Under the pieces are notes generated by a model, which had not been told where the DNA came from, searched no databases, and was given only the letters and a program-made list of their open reading frames with translations. From positions 1 through 64,000 of the forward strand of contig JAKADM010000002.1 of the NCBI GenBank assembly GCA_021820525.1: a stretch of 64,000 nucleotides of DNA. Direction: 5' to 3'. Shown one piece after another: positions 51,253 to 64,000 of the stretch; the first letter of the stretch is position 1; each line of letters begins with the position of its first letter. The DNA is from Thermoplasmata archaeon (GTDB lineage: Archaea > Thermoplasmatota > Thermoplasmata > Thermoplasmatales > Thermoplasmataceae). Both the position numbers and the translations under genes were made by a program.

Positions 51253-52197
51253 TTAAGGATCGAGTTGACCAGTGAGTTGTTCATCTAACACTCTTTGAGC
51301 CTTGCTACTTAATAATGCTCTAATTCTGTTATTTGCTATATTCATGTATTCTTTATCTGTATCATACCCGATATAATGTCTTTTTAATTCAATTGCAGCA
51401 ATTGCGGTTGTTCCACTACCCATAAAAGGATCCAGCACCACTTCACCTTCGAAAGAGTATAACTTTATTAATCTCTTCGGTAGTTCTACAGGAAATGGTG
51501 CAGGATGACCAATTTTAGTTGCAGATTCAGCACCCATAGACCATACACTTTTTGTATACTCTATGAACTCTTCCTTAGTCATTGTGGACTTCATACTATC
51601 CTTGACGCCTCTGGTAAAGCTCTGCTTCGAAAAAACTAATATATATTCGTGTGAGTCTCTAAGGACTGGATTTTTTGCTGACATATATGTACCCCAGGCA
51701 ACTGAAGAACTGGCTGTATTTCCTTTATTCCATATTATCTCACCTCGCATCAGGTAACCTGCTTTAATCATATCTTCAATTATATAGGCGTGTAAGGGGA
51801 TATATGGCTTGCGACCAAGGTTTGCAATATTAATACAGGCTCTCCCTCCAGGAACTAATACTCTATAAACTTCTTTCCAAACACTGACAAGAAACTCTCT
51901 ATATTCGTCCAGAGACATATCTTTATCATAGAGTTTTCCCACGTTATATGGTGGTGATGTTATCATTATATGAACACTATTATCTGGAATTTCTTCCATA
52001 TTCTCGGAAGACTTAAGAAAGATCTTATCAAGAGTTGACTCTGGAATCTTGTTTTCTGTAAAATTGAGTGTATTGGTCTCCTTTGGTAGACCTTCGTACA
52101 GCCTGCTATTATAAAACCGGCTCGAATCATGATTGGCCCTACTGGGACTTCCAAAAGAGCTTGTGCACGAACCAGTTTTTCTATTTTCCCCTTTCAT
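51253..52197 (-). CDS. DNA methyltransferase of a restriction-modification pair
   Basis: This 314-aa class beta amino-methyltransferase has the catalytic motif IV TSPPYNVGKLYD near residue 81 and the SAM motif I DPFMGSGTTAIAAIELK near 256. TSPPY and the order (IV before I) are typical of N4-cytosine methylases, though some N6-adenine enzymes share them. GRACINIANLGRKPYIPLHA and NKGNTASSSVAWGTYMSAKN are conserved target-region blocks. It starts in a four-base overlap with the stop of the endonuclease gene. If the partner is ThaI-like, the target would be CGCG. The protein is complete with no broken motif. Confidence 0.88.
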   Translation of the reverse strand: MKGENRKTGSCTSSFGSPSRANHDSSRFYNSRLYEGLPKETNTLNFTENKIPESTLDKIFLKSSENMEEIPDNSVHIMITSPPYNVGKLYDKDMSLDEYREFLVSVWKEVYRVLVPGGRACINIANLGRKPYIPLHAYIIEDMIKAGYLMRGEIIWNKGNTASSSVAWGTYMSAKNPVLRDSHEYILVFSKQSFTRGVKDSMKSTMTKEEFIEYTKSVWSMGAESATKIGHPAPFPVELPKRLIKLYSFEGEVVLDPFMGSGTTAIAAIELKRHYIGYDTDKEYMNIANNRIRALLSSKAQRVLDEQLTGQLDP

Positions 52198-52829
52198 TTA
52201 CTATCACTCCATAGTTCTACCCATCTCTTAAATGGGTTATAATCAATCTGAGTCTTCTTCCACTCAATTGATACAGCCAGGGTTTTATCAGAATCGACTA
52301 ACATCCTCGTAGCGTCGTTTGATAGTTCAACACCTCTTGGATTTGTACCTTGTTTCGGCAACTTAATATATTTTTCTCTGCCCAATATATCAAACACATT
52401 TTCTTGAACCTCTGTCGGTATGTAATAGAGTGCACCGCTTGAGCCCCAGTTTATATGAGCTAATATCATATCATACTTAGGTCGCCATGTTTCCAGGAAT
52501 AACTTTGCTTTCTCCGGGTCAACGGTCCAAATCAGCTTCACTCCCTTTGGCTCTCGACCACTTATTGTCTTAATGGAAATTGGGTTCCCAAATAATTTTA
52601 CATCAACTTCCGGTTCCGTAATTGGGATATTAGTTTCAACATTATTTTCTCCAAATTTATAAATGAGAAGAGCACTCAATATCTCTTCGCGTTTTGATCC
52701 TACTTGCATACCAATCTTTCCGGCTCTGGAACTTTCTAGCTCCGCTAACTGAAACAAATAAGGAAGCTTATTCCTTATCTTACTTATTATAGATTCATCT
52801 GTAAATAGTAGCATTAAATTATTATCCAT
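52194..52829 (-). CDS. ThaI-like type II restriction endonuclease
   Basis: This 211-aa protein resembles the ThaI endonuclease family of Thermoplasma (target CGCG). The likely catalytic core is PEVDVKLFGNPISIKTISG near residues 70-88, a PD-(D/E)xK variant in which E/D precede the strand and Lys ends SIK. KREEILSALLIYKFGENNVE provides the upstream helix with Glu. GSSGALYYIPTEVQEN and KQGTNPRGVELSNDAT are probable DNA-recognition segments. It overlaps the methylase start by four bases, the tight coupling usual for type II systems. I recognise the family from memory of the sequence pattern, so the CGCG target is inference. Confidence 0.68.
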   Translation of the reverse strand: MDNNLMLLFTDESIISKIRNKLPYLFQLAELESSRAGKIGMQVGSKREEILSALLIYKFGENNVETNIPITEPEVDVKLFGNPISIKTISGREPKGVKLIWTVDPEKAKLFLETWRPKYDMILAHINWGSSGALYYIPTEVQENVFDILGREKYIKLPKQGTNPRGVELSNDATRMLVDSDKTLAVSIEWKKTQIDYNPFKRWVELWSDSK

Positions 52830-53287: not shown

Positions 53288-54237
53288 CTATTTGTAAGTC
53301 TCCTTTAAACCATCCTCAAGATTCCATGATGGACTCCATCCCAATAATTTCCTCGTATAAGCTCCACTTTGGTTGAACGAAATCGGTTTTCCATTTACCA
53401 TTTCACCTGGCTCGTATTCTCCGAGGTCAATTCTCATATCTGACCCTGAGATGTCTTGTATCATATTGGCCAATTCAAAATTTGATATCACTTTATCACC
53501 CTTATTTCCCCGAGATGAAGGATCTTTCCAATAAGCTATTCTCTCATACTCGGGACTCTTTCAATAAAACTTTTATAGAATGTAATGACGTCTCCGGCAA
53601 ATGTCCATAATCTCTTAGATTCAGGGGACCTGAGATAGAATCTTTCCATATTATTTATCATCGAGAAAATGAGTTTGTGAGGCAATTCATCACTCCTCCC
53701 TCCTGGTCCAAACGAGGACGCAGTTCTTGTGATAACTATAGGAATATCAAATGAAAAGTAGTAGGTAAGATATAAGAGTTCAACTGAGGCCTTAGTCCAA
53801 CCGTAAATTGATGTTGGAAATGGAAGAGTAGCCTCACTAATAGGTCCTTCATTGTGCCCATAGGGTGCATTAAAAGATGATGGATAAACAATTACAGGTC
53901 TCTTCTCAATTTTTCTTACCTGCTCAAGAATATTTAATGATGGGAGCACGTTAGACAAGGTAGTTGTCATTGGACTCTCAGTTCCATAGAGTCTGTCAGC
54001 GTAACCAATAGCACAATCAAAAACTACATCAATATTTTCCAGGTCTCTTCTTGAGAGATCATTTTGAGATTTCCAGTAATATTTTACTTGAGACAGATGA
54101 TCAAAAATTCTCCATGCCTCTTCCTTTCTGCAGATGTCAACAACTTGAACTGAGAAACCCATATTCAAAAATAGTTTAGTTAAGGTACTCCCAAGTACTC
54201 CCGCACCCCCAGCAACCAATATCCTTATATTAAACAC
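53288..54237 (-). pseudogene. NAD-dependent sugar epimerase/dehydratase, frameshifted
   Basis: This is an extended SDR enzyme of the GalE/RmlB type. It has the Rossmann motif ILVAGGAGVLGSTLTKLF at the start, YPSSFNAPYGHNEGP, the catalytic YGWTKASVE (YxxxK) and RTASSFGPGGRSDELPH. The frame ends at a TAG near 53536. The protein continues in another frame from about 53555 as ESPEYERIAYWKDPSS and then VISNFELANMIQDISGSD up to YTRKLLGWSPSWNLEDGLK, the normal C-terminus. One base too many near 53555 explains the break. The start is likely the GTG at 54237 with GGAGG just before it, overlapping the glycosyltransferase stop. It would make a nucleotide-sugar precursor. A sequencing error is the alternative to real decay. 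Confidence 0.75.
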
Positions 54238-55070
54238 CCCTCCATATTGGATATTAGTGGGTTCAAAACACTCGGAGTACCCCATTTAGTAGCCGTTCCT
54301 ACTAATGTTTGTCGTGTAACTCCTAAACTCAGATTATCATAAAATTTTGGGTGCTTTTGCAGAACTAATTTGTCGCCCTCCCCGTATCTTTTGTATCGGG
54401 AAATAAATTTCATTAAAGACGTCTCACCATCATCATATCCATAATCATGTTTTATAATAATTTTATCCTCGGGTATAATTTTACTGCCACTATCTCTGAT
54501 TTTTAAACTAAAATCTATATCCCACCCAGCAGCAAGTGGAAACGATTCGTCAAATCTAAATCTCCTTTCAAACACACTGTTTGGCACAAAAAGAAGGCAG
54601 GTATTAGCCTAGAGAAGCGCATTTTTATTATCTTTAGAAAGGTAAACCCCATTCAATGTGCCGTCCAAATCATGAAAAATGTCGAAACAAGTATTTCCGC
54701 TGGCCTTAAATTTCGGAGATACTTTGCCTGATAAGGCCATGGCTTTAGGGGTGCCTTCATCAAGCTGATTTATGCTCGGAGCTAACACATCATCATCCAT
54801 AAATATTGTTAAATCCGTGTTATTCTCTAAGGACTTCTGAATTCCCTTATTTCTGGCCATTTCTGGGACAGAATCGTTTATCAAATTAATTACCTCTACC
54901 TTTTTGAATTTCTCTATAAGTTCCATAGCTATTTTTGGTATAGTTCCAATAACCCATACTTTTGACAGGTTGTGCCATGAACTTAAAAACTTCACTAGAT
55001 TTTTAATTCGATTGATAGCTGACAGATCAGTTTCTAATATGTGAACTGGAATAACTATCCCTGCGTTCAA
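54225..55070 (-). pseudogene. GT2-type glycosyltransferase with one amber stop
   Basis: The reading frame from a TTG at 55070 gives GIVIPVHILETDLSAINRIK, EMARNKGIQKSLENNTDLT and IFMDDDVLAPS, the GT-A fold with its DxD motif. An in-frame TAG at 54609-54611 interrupts it. The same frame goes on with NTCLLFVPNSVFERRFRFDE, then PLAAGWDIDFSLKIRDSG (the ED/WD acceptor-site motif) and IIKHDYGYDD. Apart from the one stop it is a complete enzyme of about 280 aa. It overlaps the epimerase start. The pair probably served the same surface glycan as the giant gene to the right. Confidence 0.75.
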
Positions 55071-58473: not shown

Positions 58474-59031
58474 TCAGTCCGGGATACGTTTGTGCCTCCT
58501 GCTGTACAGTAGTAAATAATCAGAAAGGATACTTAAAACATCATTTTCATTCCTGGCAGGAAAACACTGGTCATTTTTTATCTCAGGATATCTAATTCTG
58601 TGGTCTATGGTTTTTCCCCCCAGTCTTCCGCTCCAGCCATCAACATCAAGGCATATGATTAGCCGCTTTAATGCCCACGCATATGAGATTTCACTAAGTG
58701 TCCCTGCACCTCCACCGATCGCGATTACCGCGTCTGAATTGGCAGTTATAACGTTCCTGTATTCGTCTAAACCTGTTGCTATCTGAATGTCAGATGTATT
58801 TATAGCGATGGATGGATCAAACCCGGGCAATATTGCAATAACCGAACCGTCCACACGATTCTTAGAAGATTTGGCACCTTCATAGACTGCCCTTGCGAGA
58901 GAACCCACTCCACCTGTAACTATTCTGTAATCCCTGTCTACCAAAGCTCTTGAGATATTCCTGGCAAGATTCCATTTGATACCATTTTCCTCCACGTCTC
59001 TGTCGCCTATTATTGAAGTGAGGTGCTTCAT
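58474..59031 (-). CDS. TIGR00725/LOG-type Rossmann-fold nucleotide-binding protein
   Basis: This is a 185-aa protein of the SLOG superfamily (TIGR00725 type). The conserved elements are SIIGDRDVEENG near the start, VTGGVGSLARAVYEGAKSS near residue 38, AILPGFDPS near 65, and the signature AIGGGAGTLSEISYAWALKR near 105. LOG relatives release bases from nucleoside monophosphates, while others sense nucleotide derivatives; which applies here is unknown. Its ATG overlaps the stop of the giant gene by four bases, so the two are translated together and probably work in one process. Confidence 0.82.
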   Translation of the reverse strand: MKHLTSIIGDRDVEENGIKWNLARNISRALVDRDYRIVTGGVGSLARAVYEGAKSSKNRVDGSVIAILPGFDPSIAINTSDIQIATGLDEYRNVITANSDAVIAIGGGAGTLSEISYAWALKRLIICLDVDGWSGRLGGKTIDHRIRYPEIKNDQCFPARNENDVLSILSDYLLLYSRRHKRIPD

Positions 59032-62000
59032 TTTACTTTCCCCTTTTCATAAGGCCTTTTAGATATGATTTTTGCAATTATCTCTTCACGTCTTTTGACG
59101 TCTCTGTCTCTTTTACCAGGTGATGGCTCGTAAAAATATATCTTATCCTTTATCTGCATGGGATTTTTTGCCATTTCAGTCATTGGTATCATGTAGGCCC
59201 AGTCATCTGCATCCTCTATCCATTTTCCTTCTATTTTCAGGTCGTCTTCGTCGATTAAATCGAACAGATACTTCCTGAACGTTCTCAGATGCTGCCAGAC
59301 ATTTCCGCCCCTGCTTGTTCGAGGAGATTCAAAGTTTACATTATATTCCCTGTATTTGTCTGTCCTTAACATTGTTCCAATTGTCAGGTCGGTCCCTTCA
59401 TCATACAGTCTCATAACCTCCGACAGGGCATTCTTTCCAATTAAGGCATCATCTGAATCAACCATTACTATAATGGATTCAGAGTTTGCGCAGATTTTTT
59501 TTATTGCGATAAAAATATTCTGGGCTGATGTCAAAGGTTCAAAATTTCTGAGGAAGGTAATCCTTCCTTTAAAAAGTTCCATTCCTATATATTGGACATA
59601 TTCATCAGAACCGTTATGTGATGCTGCATCCACATAAATTATCCCGAAATCCTGAAAATCTTGATCACGCAATGATTTGAAGCATCGCCTTATTTTAGGT
59701 ATGGGTATGTCCCTCCCTTTTACAAGTACTATCATTTTCTCCTTTCTGAGTTCCAATATTTTGCCTGTATCGTTTGCAATAATTTCCACGTTGCCTTCCT
59801 GAGCTTTCCCTGGTTCATAACTTTCGCAGTACTTTAATGCATTATACCAGAAATTAATATCCTTCTTCTGACTGTTTGATATGTGAAGGAAATAAGCATT
59901 TCCCTTTGAACCCCTTAGAGATTCCAGACCCTTTTCCATTATTAATTTATCGAGTGACCTGTGCCAGGGTAGCTTAAGCTTGCCATCCCTGCATAAACTG
60001 TTTGGAAGTGGGGTTGTGTTTAAGATCTTGGTTCTATCAAGCAAGCAGTTTCTCACTTCTGTTCTCCATTTTCCTCCATCTTCTTTAGGAGAAAATGATC
60101 TTACATTGGAGTTAAACACAGGAAAGGATACCGTCAGGGCATTTGGAAAGTTCTGCAGAGACAGCATCATCTCCTTGAGATAGGAATCTCCCTCTCTCCT
60201 TCTATGTATTATGCAATCTGAATCAATCTGTAATATGTATTTCGACGATGCCTTTTCGAAACCCTCCAGCGTTAAGAGCACCGGCTGCCCGTTACTGCAT
60301 CTTGTCTCAGTCGATTGGATCCCGAACCACCTCTCTGAAAGCTCTTTTTTAAACTGTGGATCATCGCTTCCGTAAAGAATGAAATCTATAACGCCATCCC
60401 GCACAAGTTTATTTAGCTCGCTTTCAAATAGGTTAAGGTTTACCTCGTCGTATTCCCTTGCAAAGCCATCAGTTGCACGATCTGTAACTATGAATTTTTC
60501 CCTGAATCTCTCGGGACCTTCCAGTTGATTGACCAAATGCCTGATCTGGAAATCAATGCTTCTCCATTCCATAGGGGAAGCCTTGATCATGAGGCTCACA
60601 TCATAATTCAAAGGTTCATAACTCGCAGTGGCCCTGATCAAAAGAAATTCAGAACCTGGAGAAAGGTAGTCAAACGAAGCGCCTTCACTTTCAATTAAGT
60701 GAGTGGACACAAATCCCTCTTTTTTAATCGCATTTAGATACCAGCCTGCTGGTCTATGATATTCCTTCCTGATGTTGTGGGTGGCAATCATTTTCTTTTC
60801 ATATGAGAAATTTTCTCTGTAATCCTTAATCTCCCCCAATTTCTTATGGGTTGCCGTCTCTTTATTATGAATATTGAATGGGTTGCAGATTACAATTATT
60901 GCATCTCCATTTTTCCGCAAAACTCTTCTAACATCTTTTAACACTGAAAGAGCTTCACCATCGTCAATTGTGCAAAGAACCAGGCTAAGAATGACGGTAT
61001 CAAACTTCTCATTTTCTGAGGATATTCTGTCGAGTTCTTCTCTATGCAAAACCCTCGTGATACCTCCCTCTGGATGTTTTTTGTTGTATTCAGTCATATC
61101 AATATCATAAATGGAAACGTCATTATTGGTTGCAAGATGATCTGCCATAATTCCATTTCCAGAGCCATAATCAAGAATTTTACGCCCATTGATACTGCCA
61201 ATTTGACTCAAAACGAACGGCATCAATACCTGTCCGGTATTTTTTGTCTCTATAATGTCGAGGAAATAATCATAACCGAACATTTCAGGAAAGTTTTCAC
61301 CTGAGTTTGACTTTGTGAGCAATTCATGCAAGTCTTCCCTGAAATGCCATCTATATGTTAGATAGGCTCTGCGGCACATCTTATCGAAATACTCATCGGT
61401 GTATGGTTCTATGTCATTTCCCAGGTCTACAAATCTGAATTCATTACCCTCAACAACAATGTTCTTGGGTGCAAGGTTCTTTATTACCAGATTGTTAGAT
61501 TTACATTCCCTTATGAGGTCCACCATGTCATTCAGATGGCCTCCTTTGTAAGATTGACCCTTCACGTATTCCTTTTTGAATATCAAAGTGTTTTTTTCCT
61601 CATGAATGTCAATAAGATTTGCTATTTTTTGAAATTTCCTGCCCATCACATTATGTTTCAGAAAATTAATCTGATTTTCTTTGAAGAAAGAAGACCCATA
61701 ATGGAAATATTTGTAGGAATAAATTCCATCGCTTAAGACAATTCCTTCATATCCCTGTCCAATTATTCTTATTTCTGGAAGATCATAGACTTCCATGATC
61801 TTCTTCTTTACGGTCTTTAATTCCTTACTGCTGTAATAAACAGGTAATTTCCCGCTATAATTTCTCTGTGATTTATATAAGCTATTCAGGAATTCTTCCA
61901 GGTCTTTTCTATTAAAGTTTCTAATCTCTCCTATCAACGGATCGATCTTTGAAATATTATAAAGTCTTTCCACATCCTCACATACTTTCAATATCCTGTC

Positions 62001-64000
62001 TGAAGCCTCAGTGTGGATCTCCTTAGTGGCATTTCTGATGGATTGAATTAATCCCATTATCCTCCAGGCATTGAGTATTATTTGCCTTGCACGGGATTCT
62101 ATTTCTCCCTCCATGGTAATCAATATATTTTTTAAATCCTGCTCTGTGAATCGCAGAGGTGAATAGTAATCAGTCCTGTCTCTTCCTCTCCCAATCCTGT
62201 TTAAAAGATAAGAATCCATAGTGCGGACGAAGGCTGATCCCAATACATCCGCTACAAATTTTTCCCTGATCTTTTCATCGCTTTCCCTATCATTTCTATA
62301 CTGTATTAGCATCATGGGTGTGGAGATTATTTTTCTTGTTTCTTTGGTGGATTTCCTCTGACCGAGTCTCTTATTCAGTACCACCCATAAGGTGTCGCCC
62401 CTTCTGTAAGCTATTTCCCGATTCCTTGGAGATGAATTGTTGAAATCTTTTAGTGAGTCTATGTCCAGTATTATTGTGTTACCTCCCCTAACGGGCCCGT
62501 AAGAGTCATCCATTTGAAGATACTCCTTTTCCCCATTGCCATCGCCCGGGATCTGATAAAAGGCTTTCCTGAATACCGCCTTTGTAAGTATTTGTGCTGC
62601 CATATGGGAAAGGTCATCGATTTGAATTTCTTTTTCAGTTTCTAACCAAAATGGTGTCTCCAGGTTAGGTGAAGATTTATCTGGAAAATCATAAAAGTAT
62701 GCAGGTGAATCATATTCTATTTTACCTTTCAATGCTGGAAGGAATGGATGGTCCGAGACTGTTGATTCGTTTTTTATTGCTGCCCTCAGGTTGTAATACA
62801 GATCAATCATCTGTGTCCTCAAAGTGGACATAACCGGAACAGGTGGATCACCTCCAACCTTTCCTATCACAATGCTAACCCCTTCCTTCTGCCATCTATT
62901 GATTGTGCTTATCATATCTTTGGGTGATATCTCATTCTGAAACGTTCCCCAGTATATTTTCTTCAATGAGACATCGTCATCCAGAATCCATACAACTGGA
63001 TTGCCATACTCCAAACACTTCAGGTAAACATATCTGTGCAGAACAGTCCTGCCGAAAGCGATACCTGTTCTGTTGTCCTCCTCTATGTAGTATTCCCCAA
63101 AAACTCCTCTATTTGCTGCCTCATTGGCTTCCTCCATCTGGATTACAGATAGATTTATACCATATTCTTTGAGCTCATTTTCAGCTTCCTCTATTTTATC
63201 CCTTGGTAAGGCAGCATTGTCTGATACAACCACCGCAGAAATGCTTTGCGTTTCGTTATGAAATCCCAGTACATCCTGAATCAATGATGGAAATTTACTT
63301 TGATCTGATACTATCACACCAATAATTATATTGATTTTGTCATTCTCTTCGTGTGACAGAGCCAAACCCGGTGAATCATATTTTGAATCATCCAAAGATA
63401 TTACCACGTTGCACCCGAAATATTCCTTTGATCTCCTATGGAAGGATTCCTCATCCTGCCTGTCCATTAGTGGTTGATATTTGAAATAAAATCTTTTCAG
63501 TCCCTGACATTTTCTCTTAGATCCCTGGTCTGATAGTCTCCCGCTTCCGTATGCCCGGTGATGTACCATATGACGCTTTATAAATGAAATGCGTAAATCT
63601 CCAAGTGCAAGTAACCTCAGACTTACATCCCTGTCAGTTGTTGAGGGTAAATTTTCGTCATAACCACCTGCCATCAAAAGCTTGGAGAGTCTTACAAAAA
63701 GGTTTGATCCCTGTACATGAGGGTTTCCTCTCAGAAATTGCCACTCGGCGATGCTTTCAGGTATGGTGAGGTTTATCCCTGTATCGTCCTCGCTGTGCCT
63801 TACTATTCCAGATATTATCCAGTCAGAGTTTTTATTGATTGCTTCGTTGAAGCAGGACTGGAGATACTCCGGTTCCCACCAGTCATCATCATCAAGAACG
63901 GCGACGTATGTATTCTCCGGATCGAATCCATCTCCGATGATCTCATAAAGCGCTGTATTTATTGCACCTGAGAGATTCTTCTCCCTTTGATTGAGAAGGT
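59028..64000 (-). CDS. Giant glycosyltransferase-kinase-methyltransferase fusion (partial)
   Basis: The frame is open to the window edge, so over 1650 codons are visible and the true start lies outside. Numbering from the Met at 63677, the modules in order are as follows. First is the end of a GT2 domain, whose LDDDDWW motif lies before that Met near 63890. A GT-A-like domain follows with WILDDDVSLKK near 228 and a long insert to about 420. A helical linker spans 420-610. A protein-kinase-fold module has IIGQGYEGIVL near 637, NLAPKNIVV near 737 and FVDLGND near 749 in place of HRD and DFG. A SAM methyltransferase has ILDYGSGNG near 832. A GT domain has QIDSDCIIH near 1152, and a last GT2 domain has VMVDSDDALIG near 1407 and EDADDW near 1495. 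It is probably a cytoplasmic enzyme that builds and modifies a surface polysaccharide. The ATG at 63677 is not the start. Intact, unlike the sugar genes to its left. Confidence 0.85.
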   Translation of the reverse strand, partial: LLNQREKNLSGAINTALYEIIGDGFDPENTYVAVLDDDDWWEPEYLQSCFNEAINKNSDWIISGIVRHSEDDTGINLTIPESIAEWQFLRGNPHVQGSNLFVRLSKLLMAGGYDENLPSTTDRDVSLRLLALGDLRISFIKRHMVHHRAYGSGRLSDQGSKRKCQGLKRFYFKYQPLMDRQDEESFHRRSKEYFGCNVVISLDDSKYDSPGLALSHEENDKINIIIGVIVSDQSKFPSLIQDVLGFHNETQSISAVVVSDNAALPRDKIEEAENELKEYGINLSVIQMEEANEAANRGVFGEYYIEEDNRTGIAFGRTVLHRYVYLKCLEYGNPVVWILDDDVSLKKIYWGTFQNEISPKDMISTINRWQKEGVSIVIGKVGGDPPVPVMSTLRTQMIDLYYNLRAAIKNESTVSDHPFLPALKGKIEYDSPAYFYDFPDKSSPNLETPFWLETEKEIQIDDLSHMAAQILTKAVFRKAFYQIPGDGNGEKEYLQMDDSYGPVRGGNTIILDIDSLKDFNNSSPRNREIAYRRGDTLWVVLNKRLGQRKSTKETRKIISTPMMLIQYRNDRESDEKIREKFVADVLGSAFVRTMDSYLLNRIGRGRDRTDYYSPLRFTEQDLKNILITMEGEIESRARQIILNAWRIMGLIQSIRNATKEIHTEASDRILKVCEDVERLYNISKIDPLIGEIRNFNRKDLEEFLNSLYKSQRNYSGKLPVYYSSKELKTVKKKIMEVYDLPEIRIIGQGYEGIVLSDGIYSYKYFHYGSSFFKENQINFLKHNVMGRKFQKIANLIDIHEEKNTLIFKKEYVKGQSYKGGHLNDMVDLIRECKSNNLVIKNLAPKNIVVEGNEFRFVDLGNDIEPYTDEYFDKMCRRAYLTYRWHFREDLHELLTKSNSGENFPEMFGYDYFLDIIETKNTGQVLMPFVLSQIGSINGRKILDYGSGNGIMADHLATNNDVSIYDIDMTEYNKKHPEGGITRVLHREELDRISSENEKFDTVILSLVLCTIDDGEALSVLKDVRRVLRKNGDAIIVICNPFNIHNKETATHKKLGEIKDYRENFSYEKKMIATHNIRKEYHRPAGWYLNAIKKEGFVSTHLIESEGASFDYLSPGSEFLLIRATASYEPLNYDVSLMIKASPMEWRSIDFQIRHLVNQLEGPERFREKFIVTDRATDGFAREYDEVNLNLFESELNKLVRDGVIDFILYGSDDPQFKKELSERWFGIQSTETRCSNGQPVLLTLEGFEKASSKYILQIDSDCIIHRRREGDSYLKEMMLSLQNFPNALTVSFPVFNSNVRSFSPKEDGGKWRTEVRNCLLDRTKILNTTPLPNSLCRDGKLKLPWHRSLDKLIMEKGLESLRGSKGNAYFLHISNSQKKDINFWYNALKYCESYEPGKAQEGNVEIIANDTGKILELRKEKMIVLVKGRDIPIPKIRRCFKSLRDQDFQDFGIIYVDAASHNGSDEYVQYIGMELFKGRITFLRNFEPLTSAQNIFIAIKKICANSESIIVMVDSDDALIGKNALSEVMRLYDEGTDLTIGTMLRTDKYREYNVNFESPRTSRGGNVWQHLRTFRKYLFDLIDEDDLKIEGKWIEDADDWAYMIPMTEMAKNPMQIKDKIYFYEPSPGKRDRDVKRREEIIAKIISKRPYEKGKVK

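Follow-up and report, generated by a model that had tools for sequence, protein, structure and literature searches.

The window analysed here, the first 64 kb (64,000 nucleotides) of contig C14 (GenBank JAKADM010000002.1) from genome G000 of a Thermoplasmata archaeon (assembly GCA_021820525.1), ends within a long minus-strand gene encoding a protein of six modules. Coordinates beyond 64000 are given as C14 positions. The part of the gene inside the window occupies 59028..64000, with the stop codon at 59028-59030. A preliminary description of the window had reported a frame of more than 1650 codons, open at the window edge, that unites four glycosyltransferase (GT) modules, a kinase fold and a methylase in one chain. 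The frame is real: on the extended contig it continues to an ATG at C14:64193, 193 bases past the edge, and the full protein has 1,721 amino acids (aa). The presence of all these modules in one chain is confirmed by Pfam, profile searches and AlphaFold, and their order is GT-A, GT-B, kinase fold, methylase, GT-E, GT-F. Module boundaries were taken from module models built on 48 full-length relatives; the kinase and GT-E modules were in addition modelled at high confidence and searched by fold with Foldseek. The kinase and the methylase had originally been placed at residues 620-800 and 820-1000; both modules exist, but these numbers fit only a count from an internal TTG codon.

The ATG of the six-module gene overlaps the stop codon of an upstream sugar dehydrogenase-like gene (aaaATGacc; C14:64190-65119), and at its other end the stop codon is shared in part with the start codon of a LOG-type gene (59028-59031). 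As the overlaps occur on both sides, the three genes read as one tightly coupled set. The LOG-type gene (58474..59031, minus strand) belongs to SLOG cluster 4 and is TIGR00725-like: it exceeds the Pfam cut-off (PF18306, 1.7e-22) and falls below that of NCBIfam (75 vs 106.9 bits).

The outermost GT modules are recognizable GT2-family domains. GT-A (residues 7-265; 63399..64000, on to contig position 64175, minus strand) matches Pfam Glycos_transf_2 at 5e-14 and carries a DDDD motif at 101-104, where D101-D104 are at least 95% conserved among the 48 members. GT-F (residues 1481-1716; 59046..59753, minus strand) matches the same family at 6e-9, aligns with GT-A when the profiles are compared (hhalign, 96%) and has the motif DSDD at 1579-1582. 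The two inner modules are more divergent. GT-B (residues 285-745; 61959..63341, minus strand) has no Pfam match; it is related to GT-A by hhalign (87%, E 3.8e-6) and contains D405/D407, RGG at 569-571 and RRxD at 597-600, the acidic pair being conserved among the 48 members. GT-E (residues 1195-1474; 59772..60611, minus strand) has no significant Pfam match and carries DSD at 1324-1326. Its AlphaFold model (predicted local distance difference test, pLDDT, 93.3; predicted template modelling score, pTM, 0.92) resembles enzymes of the glycosyltransferase A fold, chondroitin polymerase K4CP being the first Foldseek match (E 1e-6), and COLGALT1 and LARGE1 are also found. This fold with a DxD-type metal motif is thus common to the four modules, as predicted for GT-B from the profile alone and for GT-E from the model. 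An internal duplication was considered as the origin of the GT modules and rejected in its simple form, as GT-A, GT-B and GT-F are mutually related GT2 domains and GT-E has no profile link to them.

The methylase module (residues 987-1189; 60627..61235, minus strand) is a class I S-adenosylmethionine (SAM)-dependent methyltransferase. It exceeds the Pfam cut-offs for Methyltransf_11 (3e-8) and Methyltransf_23, and its DxGxG motif and a further aspartate (D1008, G1010, G1012, D1030) are conserved. The pair H1146-R1147 is invariant among full-length members. Across the family, conservation extends to the acidic motif of each of the four GT modules, to the SAM motif and to residues K828, N911 and D923 of the kinase.

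The kinase-fold domain and the asparagine at its catalytic position

The kinase-fold domain (residues 791-984; 61242..61823, minus strand) contains two lobes, a glycine-rich loop (GxGxEG), the lysine K828, a catalytic loop with N911 and a DxG motif with D923, as in protein-kinase-like folds. The family profile finds 1,108 chains of the PDB at E<=1, the best at 6.5e-7, and the best 60 are all protein kinases. The AlphaFold model of the domain (pLDDT 92.7, pTM 0.86) has the aminoglycoside phosphotransferase APH(2'')-Ia and the protein kinases CaMK, PAK and Aurora as its top Foldseek matches (E 2e-7).

In an alignment with WbdD of E. coli HS, D351 corresponds to Asn906, N356 to N911 and D369 to D923. 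Asn906, encoded at 61476..61478 on the minus strand, thus occupies the position of the catalytic aspartate, and this position holds Asn in 47 of the 48 full-length members. The residues expected to contact ATP and metal, K828, N911 and D923, are invariant. The initial remark that NLAPKN replaces HRDxxxxN while the metal-binding Asn and Asp are kept is right as to N911 and D923, but it is the catalytic Asp itself that has become Asn906. WbdD loses its activity in vitro through either D351E or D351A, and with the D351A variant no O-antigen is synthesized in vivo (PMC3482155).

The aspartate is kept in relatives whose modules are split differently, namely kinase-GT-E-GT-F proteins lacking the methylase, LOG-kinase-methylase proteins and a form from Poseidoniales. 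The kinase tree shows no more than three switches between Asp and Asn, and 47 Asn proteins from both archaea and bacteria share a single branch; this is a quick tree with several long branches, supported by SH-aLRT (approximate likelihood-ratio test) values only, and was used solely to count these changes. The 60 N-type kinases differ from the 14 D-type ones at linked sites 908, 948 and 954, the changes accompanying Asn906 being H/A908, R948 and D954. Such linked differences are better explained by a redesign that has been kept than by decay, and the domain indeed looks like a maintained redesign. Judging by its sequence, we infer that it has a regulatory or substrate-holding role, or an altered chemistry, rather than ordinary phosphotransfer, and that it would still bind ATP. 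These proteins form a natural set in which the aspartate has long been replaced by asparagine, while relatives with split architecture retain it, so that the effect of the replacement is testable on comparable enzymes.

Distribution, architecture and gene neighbours

A scan of named genomes yielded about 50 proteins with this arrangement of modules; in the set of relatives, 51 reading frames, a few of them near-duplicates, have the full six in this order. The proteins are 28-52% identical to the G000 protein, aligned over residues ~8-1717. Their hosts belong to Thermoplasmata, Methanomicrobia (Methanoregula, Methanogenium), Chloroflexota (SAR202, Dehalococcoidia), Planctomycetota, Proteobacteria, Myxococcales, Neomarinimicrobiota, Clostridia, Bacilli, Bacteroidales, Opitutae and Rhodobacteraceae (with Roseovarius sp. 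A-2 as an isolate), among others. Most are metagenome assemblies, and many of the genes lie in long contigs or complete chromosomes. Occurrence is patchy: the Thermoplasmatota sets searched contain five close homologues, and most relatives of G000 have no such gene. A phage origin was rejected, as the phages collection yielded no relative. None of the curated full-length family models in the libraries searched matches the six-module chain, and we found no description in the literature of the domain set, of LOG with glycosyltransferases, or of RibA-NADAR with asparagine synthase.

The same module order recurs in other Thermoplasmatales, as intact single frames in G017 (52%) and G088 (38%); G308 has a partial single frame from GT-B through GT-E. 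In G036, which is Ferroplasma acidarmanus Fer1, a frameshift immediately behind the kinase DxG motif breaks the six-module gene (locus L011, 1474-4356, and locus L007, 1483-3843), and G308, of the same genus, is intact at this site. The very long frame and the two frames of the Ferroplasma gene might suggest that separate genes were fused by an assembly or gene-calling error. However, the Ferroplasma frameshift falls inside the kinase and not at a module boundary, and the gene is intact in about 50 independent genomes, some of them complete chromosomes. Together with the intact frames of G017 and G088 and the partial one of G308, this leads us to reject an artificial fusion, whose probability is negligible.

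The architecture is modular and admits further partners, which were identified by Pfam or by sequence motifs. A histidine phosphatase is fused to the C-terminus in L055, L060, L087 and L113 and encoded by a separate next gene in L046 and L102; L062, L069 and L070 have a fused polysaccharide deacetylase, and L093 and L095 a fused radical SAM enzyme, which other loci encode in an adjacent gene. An epimerase is fused to the N-terminus in L074 and, to judge by the module layout, in L090. There are also dehydrogenase-GT-A fusions (L087, L114), C-terminal LOG fusions (L075, L079, L122) and LOG-kinase-methylase proteins (G110, L019, L116, L120). In L117, L118 and L124 the kinase stands before or within GT-B, so the modules have been shuffled.

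The LOG-type gene is the most constant neighbour. It accompanies 31 of the 53 kinase-plus-methylase relatives, within two genes downstream in 28 cases and as a fusion in 3, and most of the reading frames overlap. Among the seven Thermoplasmatales genomes searched, a close copy (56-69% identity) is confined to those with the six-module gene and is absent from Ferroplasma; a distant paralogue (about 30%) is present in most of them. In two Clostridia (L065, 12817-14751, and L109) a protein of 645 aa with no Pfam match is encoded between the six-module gene and LOG. The upstream dehydrogenase keeps the catalytic residues C260 and K263, and most copies, 254-312 aa long, lack the C-terminal UDP-binding domain (PF03720). 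Sugar dehydrogenases are found in 21 loci and epimerases in 19. No polysaccharide export gene recurred as a conserved neighbour beside the family.

A sister branch consists of GT-A and GT-B, sometimes with the kinase. In all eight loci tested (L124, 11326-12426, and seven similar ones) a gene for a fusion of GTP cyclohydrolase II with a NADAR N-glycosidase (RibA-NADAR) follows directly downstream. Several of these loci, including one on an annotated Pseudoalteromonas plasmid, then continue with asparagine synthase and arylamine N-acetyltransferase. Two Treponema loci contain a Vut_1 transporter, a family that includes importers of queuosine precursors.

Two other features of the window deserve mention. 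At 53288-55070 an epimerase gene (53536-54285 + 53288-53491) and a GT2 gene (54609-55070 + 54225-54587) are each apparently split by a frameshift, and they look like decaying relatives of a similar pathway. A type II DNA methyltransferase and a restriction endonuclease are encoded at 51253-52829 (PADLOC 1.8e-155 and 2.4e-100), about 6 kb from the LOG-type gene.

Predicted function and alternatives

That about 50 genomes across phyla share one set of six modules, arranged alike and with conserved motifs, points to a fixed assembly line under selection. In the explanation we favour, with a probability of roughly 0.45, the protein works in soluble form as an assembly line whose product is a methylated oligosaccharide glycoconjugate, probably with a nucleotide-derived part. 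Each of the four GT modules would add one sugar, giving a short oligosaccharide of defined structure, which the methylase would decorate. The kinase-fold domain would bind ATP and metal and would regulate the process, hold a substrate or perform an altered chemistry. Together with the truncated sugar dehydrogenase and the LOG-type protein of the phosphoribohydrolase superfamily, the six-module protein would form a small operon, of which it is the core.

Cleavage of the N-glycosidic bond of nucleotides is an activity found among the enzymes of both the LOG and the NADAR family. The nucleotide-derived part, a base or ribose to which the glycan might be joined or which it might carry, is proposed on the ground that members of the wider family are paired with LOG in some cases and with GTP cyclohydrolase II-NADAR in others, that is, with two unrelated families of the nucleotide N-glycosidase type that share one glycan machine.

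Several considerations weigh against this assembly line. Some LOG-fold proteins only bind ligands, and the copies considered here may likewise only bind a nucleotide. The RibA-NADAR branch lacks the methylase, GT-E and GT-F and may serve another pathway. Asparagine at the catalytic position is compatible with weak kinase activity, and the epimerase neighbours and deacetylase fusions fit an ordinary surface glycan equally well.

Such a glycan is indeed a possible, if doubtful, alternative: the protein would assemble the repeat of a glycan that is attached to lipid or protein at the cell surface, which the methylase and a kinase active in spite of its asparagine would decorate. The epimerases in 19 loci, the sugar dehydrogenases in 21, the deacetylase fused in L062, L069 and L070, the resemblance of GT-E to chondroitin polymerase and a patchy occurrence typical of surface glycans are all what this explanation would predict. 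However, no polyprenol, flippase or Wzt_C partner was seen adjacent, the operon often comprises just two or three genes, and the most constant partner is the LOG-type gene rather than a glycan gene. The neighbourhoods also bring to mind anti-phage defence, by a metabolite made from nucleotides or by modification of nucleic acid. Conflict systems contain both SLOG and NADAR domains; a DrmD/BrxHI-like helicase is encoded directly upstream in L050 (4956-7856), genes for LOG, a DrmD-like helicase and a DrmMI-like methylase lie directly downstream in L086 (14522-21218), a DpdJ/BrxHI-like helicase is present in L013 (1075-5115) and DNA methylases in L014, L052 and L053, and the window itself has type II restriction-modification at 51.2-52.8 kb. 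Nevertheless we consider defence quite unlikely, as these neighbours are individual cases, many loci have none, variable islands carry defence and glycan genes alike, and no PADLOC model covers the six-module protein beyond a weak match to the methylase.

The preliminary description had proposed a third possibility, a self-terminating polysaccharide synthase in which the kinase and methylase would close the chain with methyl phosphate in the way known for WbdD. The union of glycosyltransferases, kinase and methylase in one chain, on which the proposal was built, stands, and a fusion of such a kind is proven for ORF6 of Klebsiella O7 (PMC11231755); H1146-R1147 could bind phosphate, like the basic residues of WbdD. 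The capping itself finds no support, given the asparagine in 47 of 48 proteins at a position where WbdD tolerates neither Glu nor Ala, the module order, the linkers and the gene partners. Kinase precedes methylase in the six-module protein, which reverses the methylase-kinase-coiled coil order of WbdD. In terminators a long coiled-coil ruler holds the capping enzyme at its distal end (PMC11231755), whereas the median linkers between the six modules are 15, 49, 3, 5 and ~0 aa, so that, judged by linker length alone, a ruler has no obvious place. The exporter domain Wzt_C (PF14524) is absent from G000, G017, G036 and G088, which are 83-99% complete, and the conserved partners are the LOG-type gene and the truncated dehydrogenase instead of an ABC (ATP-binding cassette) exporter. 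In a direct comparison, WbdD of E. coli HS escapes the family kinase model, and its match to the methylase model reaches only 12.8 bits. Capping by the WbdD mechanism is therefore improbable, and to judge from its sequence the protein probably caps no polysaccharide in the manner first suggested.

Returning to the assembly line, one may tentatively go further and see in it an undescribed pathway, widely transferred among archaea and bacteria, in which an N-glycosidase of LOG or NADAR type would release a base or ribose from a nucleotide and a methylated oligosaccharide would be assembled on it, with the kinase fold in a role other than phosphotransfer. If true, the product would be a glyco-nucleobase metabolite or a surface decoration of a new class. 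Six catalytic folds in fixed order, in many phyla and two domains of life, suggest a widespread glycoconjugate with no prior description. If the links to LOG and NADAR hold, nucleotide cleavage would be joined to glycan assembly, a pairing of which we found no report.

Comparison with known systems

Both partner genes resemble well-defined families and depart from them in particular features. The LOG-type protein keeps R92 and the GGGAGTxxE motif of the LOG/TIGR00725 family; it differs in having GGG for PGG and in being tied to the six-module protein. The upstream protein has the NAD-binding and central domains of UDP-glucose/GDP-mannose dehydrogenases together with the catalytic Cys and Lys, whereas most copies lack the C-terminal UDP-binding domain of that family.

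The six-module protein itself can be compared with WbdD and WbdA of E. coli O9/O9a, where a kinase fold and a SAM methylase also act with multi-module glycosyltransferases and where the metal-binding Asn and the Asp of DxG align with those of the six-module kinase. However, the WbdD system consists of separate polypeptides, has the methylase before the kinase, contains a coiled coil and retains the catalytic aspartate D351. Polymerase and capping functions in one chain are already known from Klebsiella O7 and O12: in O7, ORF6 has the architecture methylase-kinase-coiled coil-GT-GT, and in O12 WbbB both polymerises and terminates (PMC11231755). ORF6 of K. pneumoniae O7 likewise combines glycosyltransferases, kinase and methylase in one chain (PMC11231755). 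It differs from the six-module protein in its N-terminal methylase and kinase, its coiled-coil ruler, its two GT2 modules, its proposed catalytic aspartate D441 and its location in an ABC-transporter O-antigen locus (PMC11231755).

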